A stretch of DNA of 64,000 nt from positions 3,596,001 to 3,660,000 of the forward strand of contig NZ_CP096658.1 in NCBI RefSeq assembly GCF_023238445.1, given 5' to 3'. A program made the translations under genes and the position numbers. How positions within the stretch are numbered: the stretch's first letter is position 1; the number at the start of each line of letters is the position of its first letter. The notes under the pieces were generated by a model. It was not told the DNA's origin. It worked only from the letters and a program-made list of their open reading frames with translations, and did no database searches. Origin of the DNA: Halorussus gelatinilyticus (GTDB lineage: Archaea; Halobacteriota; Halobacteria; Halobacteriales; Haladaptataceae). This document shows positions 30,027 to 47,467 of this stretch, one piece after another.

Positions 30027-30659
30027 TCATCGACCCCGCCGCCCCTTCGTCTGGCGGTAGTCCCGGTCCATCAGCGCCTCGAAGTGGTCTAAGAACGCCT
30101 CGCGCTTGCTCTCCGAGCAGTCGAGCGGGTCGGCCATGGGGACGATTTCGAAGCCCCGGCCCCGAATCGTCGTCGCGTGGTCCGCGGTGACGTCGAACTC
30201 CTCGGCCGGGGTCGTGGTGTACTCGCTCGCTATCTCGGTCAGCGCGCGCTGGCCGACCGGCACGAGGATTTCCGGGTTTATCATCCGAACCTCGGCGTTG
30301 AGGTAGGGTTCACAGGTCAGAATCTCCTCGTCGGTCGGCGGGCGCTCGGGGTCCCGACACCGCGCGAGATACGTCAGAAAGGCGTTTTCGAGTTCCGGCT
30401 CGTCGTCGCTCGGCAGGGAGTTGTTGAGACCGAGCAGGCCGAGGAGGTGCTGGAGGGCCTCCCCGCGCTCGTCGCCCGTGAAGGGGACGCCCGTCCGGTC
30501 GGCACCCGGACCGGGGGCTTCGCCCACGAACAGGAAGTCCGCGCCCACGTCGCCGTACCCGTGGACGACCTGCTCGCGGGTCGCACAGAGTTCCGGGCAG
30601 TTCTCGCAGTCGGCGTCCATCCCGAACGGGTTCGAGCGAGTCTGCTGGTTCGCGTCCAT
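30027..30659 (-). CDS. divergent uracil-DNA glycosylase superfamily protein
   Basis: 210 residues with the UDG fold signature GEAPGPGADRTGVPF (motif 1, about 46-60) and four cysteines spaced as in Fe-S family 4 enzymes (C18, C21, C101, C116). The usual motif 2 His-Pro-Ser is replaced by ADPLDCSESKREAF (about 176-189), so the catalytic or base-flipping histidine is absent at that place. It may still bind DNA or act with another residue. A GGTTTTTACC TATA-like box about 29 nt upstream supports ATG 30659 as a leaderless start. Confidence 0.75.
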   Translation of the reverse strand: MDANQQTRSNPFGMDADCENCPELCATREQVVHGYGDVGADFLFVGEAPGPGADRTGVPFTGDERGEALQHLLGLLGLNNSLPSDDEPELENAFLTYLARCRDPERPPTDEEILTCEPYLNAEVRMINPEILVPVGQRALTEIASEYTTTPAEEFDVTADHATTIRGRGFEIVPMADPLDCSESKREAFLDHFEALMDRDYRQTKGRRGR

Positions 30660-40943: not shown

Positions 40944-42119
40944 ATGAACCCCGACCTGTCGCCGTTGGCGGACGCGCTGCGCGAGGCCGACGCGGACGGC
41001 TACCTGCTCGACGCCAGTTCCGAGGAGTCCGACCAGTTGTACCTCTCCGGATTCGACGCGCCCGACCCCTTCGTCACGCTCTACACGCCGGACGGGACCC
41101 ACCTGCTGGTCTCCGGCCTCGAATACGGCCGCGCGACCGAAGAGAGCAGCGCGGACTCGGTGGCCCGCCTCTCGGAGTACGGCTATCAGGAGAGGGTCGC
41201 CGAGTACGGTCGCACCGAGGGCACACACCGCGTGGTGGCGGCGTTCTTGGACGACCGCGGCGTCGCGTCGGTCGCCGCGCCCGAGCGGTTCCCCCTCGGT
41301 ACCGCCGACGACCTGCGCGAGCAGGGCGTCGCCGTGGAAGTGCTGGACGAGGACGTAGTGACGGAGATTCGCGCGGTCAAGACCGACGAGGAGATAGACC
41401 ACGTTCACGCCGCACAGCGGGCCAACGAGGCGGCGATGCGCGCGGCCGAGGACCTGCTCGAAGCCGCCACCGTCGAGGACGGCGTGCTGTACCACGACGG
41501 CGAGGAGTTGACCAGCGAGCGCGTCAAAGAGGAGATAGAGGTCACGCTCCTCCGGCACGGCTGCGCGCTGGACGAGACAATCGTCGCCTACGGCGCGGAC
41601 GCCGCCGGGCCGCACAACCGCGGGAGCGGGCCGCTCCGGGCGGACGAGACCATCGTCATCGACATCTTCCCGCGCGACAAGGCGACGAAGTACCACGGCG
41701 ATATGACCCGAACGTTCGTCAAAGGCGAGGCCAACGAGGAGATTCGGCGGCGCTACGACGACACCTACGACGCCTTCGAGGCGGCCCTCGACGCCGTGGA
41801 ACCCGGCGCGACGGGCAAGGAGGTCCACGACGCGGTGTGCGACCTGTACGAGGACCGGGGCTACGACACCCTCCGGAGCGACCCCTCCGCGGAGACCGGG
41901 TTCATCCACAGCACGGGCCACGGCATCGGACTCGACGTTCACGAGCAACCCTCGGTCAGTCCGGACGGCGGCGAACTGAAGCCGGGCCACGTCGTTACCA
42001 TCGAACCGGGTCTCTACGACCCGGACGTGGGCGGCATCCGCATCGAGGACCTCGTGGTCGTGACCGAGGACGGCTACGAGAACCTGACCAACTACCCGAT
42101 TCGGTTGGAACTGGAGTAG
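40944..42119 (+). CDS. M24-family Xaa-Pro peptidase
   Basis: 391-residue creatinase-fold metallopeptidase of the aminopeptidase P/prolidase type. The metal ligands are all visible: Asp in VIDIFPRDKATKYHGDMTRTF (two aspartates), His in STGHGIGLDVHEQ, Glu in TIEPGLYDPDVG, and Glu in IRIEDLVVVTEDG. The N-terminal 170 residues form the usual non-catalytic domain. ATG 40944 is used; the upstream in-frame 41 codons are Arg-rich and not family-like. The 3' flank (42120-42166) is the original target site of the transposon that follows. Confidence 0.92.
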   Translation: MNPDLSPLADALREADADGYLLDASSEESDQLYLSGFDAPDPFVTLYTPDGTHLLVSGLEYGRATEESSADSVARLSEYGYQERVAEYGRTEGTHRVVAAFLDDRGVASVAAPERFPLGTADDLREQGVAVEVLDEDVVTEIRAVKTDEEIDHVHAAQRANEAAMRAAEDLLEAATVEDGVLYHDGEELTSERVKEEIEVTLLRHGCALDETIVAYGADAAGPHNRGSGPLRADETIVIDIFPRDKATKYHGDMTRTFVKGEANEEIRRRYDDTYDAFEAALDAVEPGATGKEVHDAVCDLYEDRGYDTLRSDPSAETGFIHSTGHGIGLDVHEQPSVSPDGGELKPGHVVTIEPGLYDPDVGGIRIEDLVVVTEDGYENLTNYPIRLELE

Positions 42120-42158
42120 GTCGTTCGGAGCGTTTTCGGGCGACTTTCAGTGCTTTTC

Positions 42159-42166
42159 CCGAGAGT
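42159..42166 (+). repeat. target-site duplication, left copy
   Basis: CCGAGAGT directly precedes the left terminal inverted repeat and is repeated exactly at 45965-45972 after the right one. Confidence 0.8.
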
Positions 42167-42297
42167 GGCTCTGTTGAAACCCTTCAGCGGTTGATAGGAA
42201 CGAGTTGCTGAATACAGAGGACGGAGGATGAGTTTTGCATAGGAGTACGTTCGTTTCGGCATGGACGATCGAAACAGGCGAAAGGTACGTTGCATGC

Positions 42298-42945
42298 CTA
42301 TTTGCTTGTGTCCGCTTTCCGATCGCCACGAGCTCCGAGCCAGAGTGTCACCGTCCCAGTTATCACGACCATGCCTGCATTGAGGACGAGTAAGAGCAGG
42401 CCACCACTGGCCTTAACAGGCGCTCGTGACAGTAATGTTATTCCCCCAGCAGCTGCGGCCGGGACGAGTGCGAGGGCAGCGACGACGCCGACTAGCGTGT
42501 CTTGCCGTTCTTTGTCGGTCGTTATCCCCGCCGCGATACCCGCCGCGGCAGCAGCAACGACGCTGTACCAGCCGGCCGTAATGCGTTCCTCGAGTAGTGG
42601 TTTATCAACGAGGTTCTCCGCAGGTGGGAGAACTCCGGTCATGTTCAGTGTCACCGTCGTCACGACAGCCCCAGCAGTCGCAGCCAACAGACCGACGAAC
42701 GCGACCAAGACCCCGAATCCGGCTCGCTTCAACCGGTTGGCAGCAATGCCAGCAGAAACGAGTTCCAACGGCGTCAATGCCGGGGCAATGACCATCGCCC
42801 CGATGAGGATTGGAATCGAGTTGGTGAGGAGAGCCACGCCAGCAAGCACACCGGACATCGTCATCAAAACAAGATACGACGTATCAAGGGCGACCTGTTC
42901 GTACTTGTTCTCGCACTTTTCGGTAAGTGAGACTCTAGGAGACAT
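42298..42945 (-). CDS. DUF389 family membrane protein
   Basis: 215 residues with six or so hydrophobic helices. The segment YLVLMTMSGVLAGVALLTNSIPILIGAMVIAPALTP is characteristic of DUF389 (TIGR00341-type) proteins, whose function is unknown. ATG 42945 gives MSPRVSLTEKCENKYEQVALD. It is the first cargo gene of the transposon and faces away from the M24 peptidase. Its codon ends look less GC-biased than the flanking chromosome, consistent with foreign origin. Confidence 0.82.
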   Translation of the reverse strand: MSPRVSLTEKCENKYEQVALDTSYLVLMTMSGVLAGVALLTNSIPILIGAMVIAPALTPLELVSAGIAANRLKRAGFGVLVAFVGLLAATAGAVVTTVTLNMTGVLPPAENLVDKPLLEERITAGWYSVVAAAAAGIAAGITTDKERQDTLVGVVAALALVPAAAAGGITLLSRAPVKASGGLLLLVLNAGMVVITGTVTLWLGARGDRKADTSK

Positions 42946-43150
42946 CTCGAAGAAATACGGGCGTGCCGGGTGAAACAATTGCGACGATGCGAGAGTGTCT
43001 ACTAATGGAACTCCGTCCGTAATATTCCACTCTTAGGCGCCCCATCTACCCTCTGTACCGGTCACGCTACTTTTGACAGAGAAACGGTAGTCGAGAGCGC
43101 TTGTGCAAGATGGAGGGCGCGAATCTTGTAATCCAGATCGTGCTGAAATC

Positions 43151-43425
43151 ATCAGTAACGATACCCGCTTCGGTTTCAGTCTCCCTTCAGTTCAGCCATA
43201 CACTCGGCGCAAACTTTCATATCACCCTGCCTGGCAAAGTCTTCTTTACCGTGATCGATTGAGTCGATTAGTTCTTTCGTGATAACATCTGGCGAGATGG
43301 TTTGAAGATCGTCCACATCGCGGCCGCATCGAGCACATTCTACCATGTGAATAAGCAACAAGGTCGCGGGTTATTATTATTAGCCACGAATCATACCGTC
43401 AACGCTGTAGCCTATCGTTACTGAT
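43151..43425. repeat. nested unit with perfect 13-bp inverted repeats
   Basis: ATCAGTAACGATA (43151-43163) and TATCGTTACTGAT (43413-43425) are exact inverted repeats on either side of the CXXC zinc-protein gene. A 10-bp direct repeat, TGAAATCATC, occurs at 43144-43153 and 43430-43439, close to both ends, and GCGCGAATCTTG recurs at 43117-43128 and 43506-43517. Confidence 0.6.
43176..43346 (-). CDS. 56-residue CXXC zinc protein
   Basis: Two zinc-binding knuckles, CARCG near the start (MVECARCGRDVDDLQ) and CAEC near the end (GDMKVCAECMAELKGD), are separated by about 35 residues rich in Asp, Ile and Lys. It resembles small plasmid-borne haloarchaeal zinc proteins that may bind DNA or proteins. 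ATG 43346 is chosen over 43361. It lies inside the inverted-repeat unit and is transcribed leftwards. Confidence 0.7.
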   Translation of the reverse strand: MVECARCGRDVDDLQTISPDVITKELIDSIDHGKEDFARQGDMKVCAECMAELKGD

Positions 43426-43702
43426 CTGTTGAAATCATCCTCTAAGTCGGCTACGCCTGTTCTGACAATAGCCTGGGACTTCGTTCAGCGTCTGCTACAG
43501 CGAAAGCGCGAATCTTGCATGGGAGTCCGTTGGCAAGCTAGGCAAGTCACCTTGACTGTTCGTCCCGGGACTGGGAGCGGTGCTCGGGAGGGTGTGTCCG
43601 CAGAGCGTGTCGGGGAGCGACCTGTCGATTACCACTTCACCCGGATTCCCTTCTCGTGGAATCGCTACGGGCCTTTATTGTCGTGCCCGCTCTACTATCG
43701 GT

Positions 43703-44173
43703 ATGACACTCGACGTATCCATCCCGGAGCCACCCGATCTCTCGAACCGGGGGCGACCGAGCGGTTTCGACTGGGAAGAATCGGAGACCCTCGGATCCGA
43801 GGACTTCTACCGCGAGGATCTCGAGAACCTCCTCCAGGAAGGCGCGTGGCGTGAGGGGTTCGAGGAGTGGGCGGAGTACACGAATCTCGACGAGGAGGAG
43901 GTCCGAGTCGTCGACGACCTTGACCTGTTCCAGGCCTTCGACTTCTACCGTGATCCAACGGACGACCACCTCCGCTTCGACGCCCCGACGGTGCCGGAGG
44001 ACTGGCGCGAGCGCGACGTGACCGAATCGCTCGATTCGAGTTCGGTCTCGGCCATCAACGGCGAGTTACATGACCTCGGCCGGGCCGTCCACGAGACACT
44101 CCAGAACTACCTCCAGCGGACCCGCGACGCCTCCGACCGGAACGAGGAACCCTTTGGCGAGCGCGAGGAGTAG
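43703..44173 (+). CDS. acidic cargo protein of unknown function
   Basis: 156 residues, strongly acidic, with a clear start MTLDVSIPEPPDLSNRGRPS. Blocks such as DFYREDLENLLQEGAWREGFEEWAEYT, DLDLFQAFDFYRDPTDDHLRFDAPT and the C-terminal helix AINGELHDLGRAVHETLQNYL look conserved rather than random. I have a memory of similar proteins on haloarchaeal plasmids but cannot name the family. ATG 43703 sits about 27 nt after a CTTTATTGTC TATA-like box, so it is probably leaderless. Transposon cargo. Confidence 0.7.
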   Translation: MTLDVSIPEPPDLSNRGRPSGFDWEESETLGSEDFYREDLENLLQEGAWREGFEEWAEYTNLDEEEVRVVDDLDLFQAFDFYRDPTDDHLRFDAPTVPEDWRERDVTESLDSSSVSAINGELHDLGRAVHETLQNYLQRTRDASDRNEEPFGEREE

Positions 44174-44607
44174 AGCGAGGTAACGGAGGAACGCGGGCGG
44201 TAGTACGGTGGGCGTAGGTGAGGCGGAGGGTGGAGTGGCGGACGGTGGTGAGCCGAGCGGTGGATTGGCGGGCGTTGGTGGGGTCAAGAAGCTCCAGAAG
44301 GTGGTCCGGGATGAAACCCTAACCGTAGCTAAATCCACCGAATACCGCGCGCGAACTACATGGGTCGTGCTCCCGAGCCATTGGCGACTCAGGAGGCCCT
44401 CTCGATCCAAGAGGTCTACACCCAGCAGTGGGAACCGAAGACCAGCAACAGCGCCAGGGCCGCCGGGATCGCGTCCGTCGGCGACTGAATCGTTTTCCTG
44501 GTCTTGGGGAGTGGCTTCGAGATCTGGGTCAGTCGGGAGGGGAAGTTCGACCCACATCTCCGATAGGCAGCCCTACTGTTATCCGTCTGAATCCCCTACC
44601 ATGATAT
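44174..44607 (+). other. cargo region without a supported gene
   Basis: About 430 nt between two cargo genes. A 44174-44280 stretch is G-rich with GGT/GGAG/GGC repeats. A 42-codon frame near 44359 (MGRAPEPLATQEAL...) reads as protein-like but has no neighbour or homologue known to me. No inverted repeat or RNA gene is seen. Confidence 0.4.
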
Positions 44608-44940
44608 ATGGCAGATGATAAACAGGGCCGAGATGAGCAAGCGGATGATCAAAAACGTCGCCAGCGAGAGCGGATGCAAGAGGAGGCACATACCCGTGCC
44701 GATGAAGAAGAGCCGATGCGCGTCGACTCTGGTGAGGGGCTTGGTGATCTTGATGAAGCGCTCAAATCGCACGACTATCCAGCCACGACAAATGAGTTGG
44801 TTGAAGCCTATGGCGATTATGAACTTGAAACTCAGGGCGGCAAGAAATCCCTGGAGGACGTGTTCGCTTTAACTGATGACGAAATGTATGACTCAGCCGA
44901 GGACGTTCACAGACGGCTACTGGAACTCATAGGCCGATAG
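44608..44940 (+). CDS. DUF5789-like small protein
   Basis: 110 residues. The first 45 residues are highly charged (DDKQGRDEQADDQKRRQRERMQEEA). The rest (LGDLDEALKSHDYPATTNELVEAYGDYELETQGGKKSLEDV) matches the pattern of the haloarchaeal DUF5789 family of unknown function. It is the last cargo gene before the transposase and is convergent with it. Codons are relatively A/T-ended, again hinting at transfer. Confidence 0.75.
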   Translation: MADDKQGRDEQADDQKRRQRERMQEEAHTRADEEEPMRVDSGEGLGDLDEALKSHDYPATTNELVEAYGDYELETQGGKKSLEDVFALTDDEMYDSAEDVHRRLLELIGR

Positions 44941-45059
44941 CACAACGGTCCAACACACTCATCTCGCAAATTGGACCGCCCGTGCTGAGGTAAACTCCGT
45001 CTGTGGTTACCTCTCTGCTGAATCCACTCTCTATATTCAGCAGTCCGTTCATCTCGGAA

Positions 45060-45911
45060 TCACGGACATTTGCCCCTCTCGTGTGAAATGGCGAGGCTTC
45101 GCTCCAGATTGTGAACGATGCACTTGATGACGAGTTCGCGGAACTGCTTCCACCAGAGGCGTGACCGAACGAATGCACCGAATTTCTGTTTGATCGCTGC
45201 ATTGACTGTCTCGTTCATATTCCGTCTATGGTAAAGATCGTTGTCCAGTCGTGCATTCCACGCCGTGTGGAGTGGGGTAAACTCCCGGTGCTTTATGAGC
45301 GGCCGAATATCGTGATTTCGGGCTAGCTGCCGGATCTTCTGGTCGTCGTATCCCTTGTCACCGGTCAACACCTCGATGGACGCTGCGTTCCGTTTCACCA
45401 CCTGTGGTGCAATCTGCGTATCGTGTTTTCGTGTCGTCGTCACGTGAACATCGAGCACGGCGTTGGTTGCTGTATCGACTAATAGCGTTGTCTTCAACTG
45501 CTGGATGGAGAGATTCGTTCGCTTCGTGTAGTGAGTTGATGCATGCGCCCGATCAAACCCGGATGCATCGATACCGGTGACACCGTTTAGCGGCAAGTCC
45601 GCAAGTGAAACGTTCAGCAGAACCCGCCAGACGGCCATCTCCAAGCGGGCGAACGCCTTACAGAGTGTCGAGGGTGCAGGGATCGAATCGAGATCGAGAG
45701 CGTCTCGAATCCGAGGCATCTCGATAAGTTCGTCAACGAGGTCGCGGTGCGTTGTCGTCTTCTTTACTTTCAGACAAAGCAAGACGACGTGTTGGCGAAG
45801 CGTGAACCGCTTCCGTGAATAGCGGGTTGAAAACCGTTCCACAGTACGGCGAGCCAACACCATAGCGCGTTCAACGAATCGAAGGAGTCGTGACTTCGGG
45901 AGAGCATCCAT
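45060..45911 (-). CDS. IS5-family transposase
   Basis: 283 residues from ATG 45911 (MDALPKSRLLRFVERAM); GTG 45929 would add six. The DDE catalytic set is visible: Asp in GIDASGFDRA, Asp in LTGDKGYDDQ, and Glu in the Y-x2-R-x3-E-x6-K signature YHRRNMNETVNAAIK. The N-terminus is the DNA-binding domain of the haloarchaeal IS5 group. The reading frame is intact, so the element may be active. It is transcribed away from the right end, whose inverted repeat starts 35 nt upstream of the GTG option. Confidence 0.93.
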   Translation of the reverse strand: MDALPKSRLLRFVERAMVLARRTVERFSTRYSRKRFTLRQHVVLLCLKVKKTTTHRDLVDELIEMPRIRDALDLDSIPAPSTLCKAFARLEMAVWRVLLNVSLADLPLNGVTGIDASGFDRAHASTHYTKRTNLSIQQLKTTLLVDTATNAVLDVHVTTTRKHDTQIAPQVVKRNAASIEVLTGDKGYDDQKIRQLARNHDIRPLIKHREFTPLHTAWNARLDNDLYHRRNMNETVNAAIKQKFGAFVRSRLWWKQFRELVIKCIVHNLERSLAISHERGKCP

Positions 45912-45964
45912 CTTCCCCCAACTACTCACCCGTCGTGTTTGTCAGCAAGGGTTTCAACAGGGCC

Positions 45965-45972
45965 CCGAGAGT
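45965..45972 (+). repeat. target-site duplication, right copy
   Basis: CCGAGAGT, identical to 42159-42166 and adjacent to the right inverted repeat of the transposon. Confidence 0.8.
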
Positions 45973-46054
45973 GATTTTCTACCTCGGCGCGTGGTGGCGC
46001 GTCGTCTCGTTCGCCGACAGAGAAACCGAAGCAATCAGTCGAATCCGCCGAATC

Positions 46055-47467
46055 TCAGACCGGAATCCGGTCTACGATGGTGTCCTCGTCCACGACCAGA
46101 TTGTAGGCCTCCTCGTCGTCGTTCCACAGCACCAGCACGTTTTCGAACGAGAGCAGGTCGCCGTACGCCGCACTCGCGAGGTCGGCGTTCATCGAGGTCT
46201 CGCGGGTCAGCACGGCGAAGTGGTCCTCGGCCTCGCTCCCGTCGCTGATTTTGAACAGGGGATTGCGGTCGCCCTCCGACAGCGAGTGGCTGAGTTTGAG
46301 CGCCACGAGGTCGATGCGCCCGGTGACGTGGCGGTCCATGTCGGCCATCTTGGCGACGTGTTCGGTGTCGAGGTCGAACTCGACTTTGCGGGTCCCGTCG
46401 GGGCGCAGAATCGAGTAGGAGAACTGCACGTCCACGTTGACGAACTCGCCCGACGCGCCCGCGGCCTCGTCGAGTTTGCGCTGGAACGCGGGCACCTCCA
46501 CGTCGGGTTTCACGTCGAAGGACCACCCGCGGTCGGTCGGGCGCTCGCCGGGCCAGAGCCGGAGCGTCGGGGAGAACACCGTCGCGGCCCCGGCGTCGTC
46601 CGCCACGGCGCGCTCGACCCGCCGAAGCCCGATGCTGGTCTCGCGGTCGGCGGGTTCGAGCGCGACGACAGAGCCGTCCTCGGCGAGGAAATCGAGGTAG
46701 CGCCGGACGACCGCGGCGGGGTCGTCGAGTTCGTTCAGGACGTTGGCGAACAGCACGAGGTCGTACGGCTCGTCCGAGTCCGGTTCGAACTCCTCGGCGC
46801 GCTCGCGGTGGACGTCGGCGTGGAAGTTCCGGTCGGCGTCCGCCAGCAGGTGGTCGAACACGTCCGCGGCGGCGCTGGGTTCCACCGCGTCGTACTCCAC
46901 GAGAGCGTCGTCCGGCAGGTAGTCGGCGAGACCGAGCGCCGGACCGCCGACGCCCGCGCCCACGTCGAGAATCCGGAGTCGGCGGTCGAGTAGGCCTTCC
47001 TCGGCGAGTTCGTGGACGACGTACTGGACCGCGGCGTAGTTGTCCGGCAGGTGGTAGATGGCGTAGGCGAGCGCGACCACCTTGTCGTACTCGACGGGGT
47101 TGTTCCGGAAGTAGTCGGATTTGAGTCGCTGGATGGTGTTCCGAAGCCGGTTGCCCGACTCGCCCTCGTGCCAGTCGGGACCGAACCGCTCGACCAGCAG
47201 GTCCTCAAGCTCCATGCCGTACTCCGGCGGGAACGCCTCGACGCTCCGGAACGTCGGCGCGATAGGCCCCTCCGCGACCGGTTCGAAGGTCCGGTCCTCG
47301 CGCTCGACCAGTCCGAGCGAGGGCGCTTCCTCGCGGAGAATCTGGCGGACGACGCCGGGATGCGGCCGGCTGTCGATGTATTCGGAAATCTCGTCGGCGT
47401 CGATGGGTCGGACCTCCCGGAGGTACTTCGCGTTCTCCCGGACCTTCCGTCGTAGTTCGTCGTTCAT
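46055..47467 (-). CDS. Rsm22-like class I methyltransferase
   Basis: 470 residues. A helical N-terminal domain includes ALAYAIYHLPDNYAAVQYVVHELAEE, the stretch that defines Rsm22-type small-ribosomal-subunit-associated methyltransferases. The SAM-binding Rossmann core follows (ILDVGAGVGGPALGLADYL, then DLVLFANVLNELDDPAAVV and VVALEPADRETS). The C-terminal 150 residues are beta-rich. Its ATG overlaps the tyrA stop as ATGA. The four-cysteine cluster of some Rsm22 proteins is not evident. A role in ribosome or rRNA methylation is inferred only. Confidence 0.75.
   Translation of the reverse strand: MNDELRRKVRENAKYLREVRPIDADEISEYIDSRPHPGVVRQILREEAPSLGLVEREDRTFEPVAEGPIAPTFRSVEAFPPEYGMELEDLLVERFGPDWHEGESGNRLRNTIQRLKSDYFRNNPVEYDKVVALAYAIYHLPDNYAAVQYVVHELAEEGLLDRRLRILDVGAGVGGPALGLADYLPDDALVEYDAVEPSAAADVFDHLLADADRNFHADVHRERAEEFEPDSDEPYDLVLFANVLNELDDPAAVVRRYLDFLAEDGSVVALEPADRETSIGLRRVERAVADDAGAATVFSPTLRLWPGERPTDRGWSFDVKPDVEVPAFQRKLDEAAGASGEFVNVDVQFSYSILRPDGTRKVEFDLDTEHVAKMADMDRHVTGRIDLVALKLSHSLSEGDRNPLFKISDGSEAEDHFAVLTRETSMNADLASAAYGDLLSFENVLVLWNDDEEAYNLVVDEDTIVDRIPV

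Follow-up and report, generated by a model that had tools for sequence, protein, structure and literature searches.

Gene cassettes bounded by paired dif-like arms and carried by IS5-type transposons: a probable site-specific cassette system of Halobacteria

The window analyzed here, a stretch of 64,000 nucleotides (positions 3,596,001 to 3,660,000 of NZ_CP096658.1, in the 3.67-Mb single-contig genome of Halorussus gelatinilyticus), contains an IS5-type transposon whose passenger genes are punctuated by pairs of short, inverted arms. Its anatomy and that of its relatives make it quite probable that haloarchaea possess a gene cassette system comparable to integrons and dif modules, mobilized by IS5-type transposition, with a small tyrosine recombinase that we call INT as its likely enzyme.

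The element is flanked by exact copies of an 8-bp target duplication, CCGAGAGT, abutting both of its 18-bp ends (GGCTCTGTTGAAACCCTT at 42167-42184 and GGCCCTGTTGAAACCCTT on the minus strand at 45947-45964), which are identical at 17 of 18 positions. At up to 3 mismatches, the 18-bp end had just these 2 matches in 64 kb, against 0.01 expected from shuffles. The intact transposase at the right end passes the NCBIfam model NF033579 "IS5 family transposase" (210.9 bits, cut-off 140) and also matches Pfam DDE_Tnp_1. A first-pass annotation had proposed the ends, the duplication and the transposase, together with four cargo genes coding for DUF389, CxxC, acidic and DUF5789 proteins, and all of them were found as described. 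The DDE transposase, the terminal inverted repeats and the target duplication are those of the IS5 family, but a compact, transposase-only element was not found among the copies listed. The features are as follows.

42159-42166, no strand: left target duplication CCGAGAGT, same as 45965-45972
42167-42204, plus strand: left terminal inverted repeat, outer part, GGCTCTGTTGAAACCC... (37-38 bp in the family)
42205-42232, minus strand: degenerate R arm (28 bp, dif-like), assigned by comparison with relatives
42298-42978, minus strand: cassette gene 1, DUF389 membrane protein, 226 aa (Pfam E 2e-17)
43038-43130, plus strand: putative recombination site 1, L arm 43038-43065, R arm 43103-43130, 37-bp center
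43176-43361, minus strand: cassette gene 2, 61-aa CxxC (zinc-ribbon-like) protein
43427-43519, plus strand: putative recombination site 2, L arm 43427-43454, R arm 43492-43519, 37-bp center
43580-44173, plus strand: cassette gene 3, acidic protein, 197 aa from the first start
44608-44940, plus strand: cassette gene 4, DUF5789 protein, 110 aa (Pfam E 8e-16)
45016-45043, plus strand: L arm at the cargo/transposase junction, TGCTGAATCCA-CTCTCT-ATATTCAGCAG, 28.3 bits
45060-45929, minus strand: IS5-family transposase, intact ORF, 289 aa (NF033579, Pfam)
45947-45964, minus strand: right terminal inverted repeat, 17/18 identical to the left
45965-45972, no strand: right target duplication CCGAGAGT, same as 42159-42166

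The five window arms scored 16.3 to 30.8 bits, compared to a maximum of 13.6 in five shuffles; those of site 1 reached 19.8 and 30.8 bits, and the arm at 45016-45043 kept its score even though it was outside the profile training set. The left end of the transposon bears one arm and the transposase junction the other. The R arm at the left end retains an intact inner half (TTGCTGAATAC), its outer half has diverged, and the best profile score in this region was just 8.9 bits, in another frame. Judging from the sequence, it looks like the arm of the end fused with that of the DUF389 cassette: near the left end of a related element (L166, genome G265), at the place of the single window arm, two of the R type lie about 49 bp from each other. 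The start of the acidic protein gene is uncertain (an ATG is found at 43703), and a Pfam search of its product gave no match. Genes 3 and 4 may form one cassette, as the arm profile found no recognizable site separating them. An Rfam search of 42000-46100 detected no known RNA element. Outside the element, a lone weak arm-like sequence (30215-30242, 15.2 bits) scored just above the shuffled maximum and may be due to chance.

To place the element among its relatives, copies of its transposase were gathered from 392 genomes of the class and from the genus set. Among those listed, the transposase unit starts at the equivalent of position 45016, with the conserved sequence TGCTGAATnnACnCTCTRTATTCAGCAG. 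A left end was accepted when the 8 bp before an upstream end matched those of the right flank, which was the case for 31 of 77 copies, representing 30 distinct elements including that of the window. Their length ranges from 1.2 to 6.8 kb, the left end is remote from the transposase, and the 8-bp duplication is exact in 28 and has one mismatch in the other 2; an exact 8-mer beside a 17-bp end-like sequence within 5 to 10 kb should arise by chance very rarely. Alignment between elements is limited to the ends and the transposase unit, the cargo being unrelated. The common layout and matching duplications of these 30 elements, which are copies of the kind that the annotation had suggested looking for (same ends, other cargo), support its view that the whole unit moved with its cargo. 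The annotation had also seen no left end adjoining the transposase, and none exists in the window or the related copies listed, nor did the latter include an IS-only copy whose left end would lie near 45000. A plain IS beside unrelated genes was ruled out because the related copies listed have no adjacent left end, and chance insertion of cargo into one IS because all copies, with different cargo, share the same boundary. No orthologous empty site was found in the 17 other genomes of the genus, where the two flanking genes are not separated by a conserved spacer.

Several elements showed peculiarities of their own. A second element was found in the same genome outside the window (G000 1405815-1407264, L180), with a length of 1450 bp, an exact duplication (AAACTGCT) and a transposase 68% identical to that of the window. 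At L084 (4953-7333), a second transposase (39% identical) is located at the other end, and both use one end pair. The cargo bay of a 3903-bp element (L115) contains a 346-aa IS110-like transposase-like gene, and that of a 3269-bp element (L132) a second DDE-type transposase-like gene.

What the transposon carries is organized by a repeat of about 93 bp that separates the genes of L166 and that a profile search found to be widespread, occurring twice in the window. An alignment of 21 93-bp sites showed a compound structure, with an L arm of 28 bp, a center of 36 to 38 bp and an R arm of 28 bp, the arms being inverted. Each arm consists of two 11-bp half-sites around a 6-bp spacer, as in dif, and the offset from L to R was 64 to 66 bp in 29 of 31 unique pairs. 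The first-pass annotation had missed the two compound sites of the window, 43038-43130 and 43427-43519, as well as the arm at 45016-45043. Its reading of a transposon with cargo stands as regards the movement of the unit and is incomplete in lacking the exchangeable cassettes, the arms and the dedicated tyrosine recombinase of the wider system.

A census with a sequence-only model of the compound site, in which counts per genome and totals are lower bounds, detected sites in at least 145 of 242 Halobacteria genomes and at least 52 of 73 genera. In a sample of 148 genomes of the phylum, at least 12 had sites (one of them at least 28), all belonging to the order of the window, and none was found outside the class. 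Neighboring sites form head-to-tail arrays: at 40 array loci, 116 of 117 neighboring full sites less than 4 kb apart had the same orientation, and as many as 12 or more full sites were found within one 20-kb stretch. Arrays are frequently located between terminal repeats without a transposase, and two of them (L252 and L263) have full terminal repeats and exact duplications. Their cargo includes regulators, transporters, P450, metallo-beta-lactamase-fold proteins and stress proteins, and cassette genes run along the array in 19 cases and against it in 34, with 58 undecided. A defense island was ruled out as an explanation, with 1 PADLOC match among 74 cassette ORFs.

The cassettes have changed neighbors at the arms. 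The window cassette with the CxxC gene (43131-43426) was found again in other genomes with arms at its bounds, and cassettes present in several genomes beside other neighbors remain common through the proximal half-site and the spacer, after which a few alternative half-sites follow. For 82 cassette sides with different neighbors, identity was 0.83 in the proximal half, 0.84 in the spacer, 0.62 in the distal half and 0.33 over the next 37 bp beyond the arm, versus 0.55, 0.68, 0.68 and 0.32, respectively, for unrelated cassettes. Exchange within the arm is indicated, since the proximal half and the spacer are kept while the distal half is at background. The clearest case is L166, an element in another family with the same four genes (cargo 94.5% identical) and an exact duplication, AAACGGCT. 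It has two additional cassettes (2.9 kb) exactly between the L arm of DUF5789 and that of the transposase, so that on the transposase side the two elements differ precisely by the cassettes between two L arms. Neither an excised circle nor a before/after pair of one strain was seen. Homologous recombination between the short arms could imitate part of the exchange pattern. Some rearrangement was not site specific, because an element with two of the genes (L173, 6005-6110, genome G327) lost two cassettes via GTTAC microhomology rather than an arm, leaving a hybrid zinc-gene/DUF5789 end beside a truncated transposase; a simple site-specific origin of this junction was ruled out.

INT, a XerA-like tyrosine recombinase of 234 aa that recurs at arrays, comprises the catalytic part only. 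It belongs to the tyrosine recombinases by its Phage_integrase domain (PF00589, 55.9 bits), and the catalytic residues R65, K124, H181, R184, W207 and Y216 are conserved in 24 sequences. XerA was the nearest solved chain by sequence (E=0.008) and also by fold (E 2.4e-6), using a predicted model (pLDDT of 82.8 with 24 sequences and 44 with 6), with the integron integrase 2a3v among the top hits. Three cysteines, C92, C94 and C97 (within residues 92-97), are invariant in this family in an otherwise standard catalytic domain and could represent a metal site. In a phage collection, the nearest relatives were phiCh1 Int1 (44%) and the HCTV-5 integrase (range of 44 to 49% identity); a DNA inversion system is on record for halovirus phiCh1 (Rossler 2004 and Klein 2012, as cited in PMC8371274). 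The two viral regions scanned, from phiCh1 and HCTV-5, contained no arm-like site above 8 bits.

INT is linked to the arms by its position. Its gene has an L arm on one side and an R arm on the other, in the place of the 36 to 38 bp of an ordinary site. A class-wide search recovered 19 INT loci at 72% identity or more, and an arm was directly beside the gene in all of them (on both sides in 12), while the same was true for none of 11 distant relatives (41 to 54% identity). The L arm lies 44 to 81 bp upstream and the R arm mostly 32 to 37 bp downstream, although two of the 19 arms are weak (13 to 14 bits) and L291 has just one arm beside the gene, an L arm located downstream. Examples are found on plasmids of Haloarcula marina DT1 (NZ_CP100405.1) and Haloprofundus halobius (NZ_CP083667.1), and in genome G017 (L153) an intact INT and an IS5-type transposase are within about 3.2 kb. 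The number of sites per genome (lower bounds) was higher where INT is present (median of 9 versus 1; Mann-Whitney p=4e-5, uncorrected for relatedness). The reading is weakened, however, by the detection of INT in just 17 of 242 genomes compared to at least 145 with sites. No close INT was found by the class-wide search in the window genome, and many arrays are likewise without one. Hosts whose arrays have no close INT do contain other tyrosine recombinases, and ten array-bearing genomes had 4 to 19 Phage_integrase matches each. At L249, L250 and L263 (G175), different tyrosine recombinases of about 350 aa (49 to 59% mutual identity) adjoin the array ends and possibly derive from integrated elements.

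The mechanism that we propose is as follows. An IS5-type transposon holds gene cassettes in a bay between its two ends; inverted 28-bp arms bound each cassette, and a compound site joins neighbors. A tyrosine recombinase would exchange strands at the spacer; two like arms in direct repeat, flanking one gene and one compound site, would allow excision, probably as a circle, followed by insertion elsewhere. The likely enzyme is INT, which may still be active; some arrays have its gene flanked by an L and an R arm, in the slot that otherwise contains the 36-to-38-bp center and, at the right end of the transposon, the transposase gene. The window cassettes would need an enzyme in trans, because this copy has no INT. 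The IS5-type transposase moves the ends and everything between them, as bacterial transposons move mobile integrons.

Among known systems, dif modules are a close match. Acinetobacter plasmid dif (pdif) modules have 28-bp sites with a 6-bp spacer in inverse orientation round each module, two types alternate, and adjacent pairs are excised (PMC13141974), while the dif layout in bacteria and archaea is 11 + 6 + 11 bp (PMC8371274). The haloarchaeal arms share the length, the layout and the inversion round modules. However, the second module is nearly always a 36-to-38-bp spacer, or else INT or the transposase; arrays reach at least 12 full sites per 20-kb stretch; a dedicated recombinase is located inside the array, unlike pdif, which relies on host XerC/XerD; and an archaeal IS5-type transposon acts as the carrier. 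We know of no chromosomal dif for these haloarchaeal hosts.

The likeness to integrons is evident in the head-to-tail arrays with one compound site per gene, the two inverted simple sites in each compound site, the diverse cargo, the carriage by transposons and the tyrosine recombinase, whose fold neighbors include an integron integrase. A true integron-type system, with folded single-stranded attC-like sites and an IntI-like enzyme, is nevertheless very improbable. INT scored 20.1 bits against integrase_gron (cut-off 265), and neither an IntI with the family-specific domain nor any recombinase of that type is present in the window element. Pairing between L and R arms was found in 60.5% of cells, compared to 61.1% in shuffles, with a covariation score below the shuffled mean, and a folded attC-like site was discarded as unlikely because of this absence of covariation. 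In addition, cassette genes occur in both orientations and INT is inside a site instead of at the array head. An archaeal integron survey does not mention haloarchaea or Halobacteria in its text (PMC9668308). By integrase type and folded site, then, the system is outside the integrons, and its closeness to dif modules is high.

More weight, although still a small share, goes to the idea that the arms are simply the inner parts of long transposon ends. Arrays would then go back to old transposon insertions, tandem or nested, whose outer repeats have disappeared and which homologous recombination has reshuffled. The 36-to-38-bp center does resemble the outer part of the terminal repeat, fully in length and partly in sequence, and the transposase-free elements L252 and L263, as well as the GTTAC deletion, would fit such a history. 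The nearly uniform orientation and fixed 64-to-66-bp spacing of the sites, the limit of exchange at the spacer and the confinement of adjacent arms to close INT copies argue against it. Transporter IS (tIS) and mobile insertion cassettes (MIC) have passenger genes, as the window element does. That the latter is an ordinary element of this kind with incidental arms agrees with its transposition as a unit with passenger genes, and is if anything the least probable of all, as it leaves unexplained the shared compound sites, the transposase-free arrays and the location of INT between arms. The NF033579 transposase, the terminal repeats and the 8-bp duplication are shared with IS5-family insertion sequences; in the present family, the left end is always remote and the passengers are exchangeable cassettes. 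The sequence anatomy fits cassettes that are exchanged site-specifically and an IS5-type transposon that serves as their vehicle.

Haloarchaea exchange genes widely. In the open-access PMC literature that we searched, no dedicated gene cassette platform has been described for them; an earlier description elsewhere is possible, as the search covered this text alone. The cassette arrays look like an archaeal equivalent of the bacterial integron, separate from it. With somewhat less assurance, we favor the view that haloarchaea own an independent system, distinct from integrons and from host Xer/dif, with dedicated minimal XerA-like recombinases acting on paired 28-bp sites, a recombinase gene inside a site, IS5-type vehicles and an influence on the accessory gene content of over half the Halobacteria genomes sampled. 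If confirmed, it would provide a concrete mechanism of accessory gene turnover in haloarchaea and could be compared, in evolutionary terms, to integrons and dif modules. The 93-bp site would serve as a marker delimiting cassettes in any haloarchaeal genome, and the small recombinase could become a genetic tool for halophiles.
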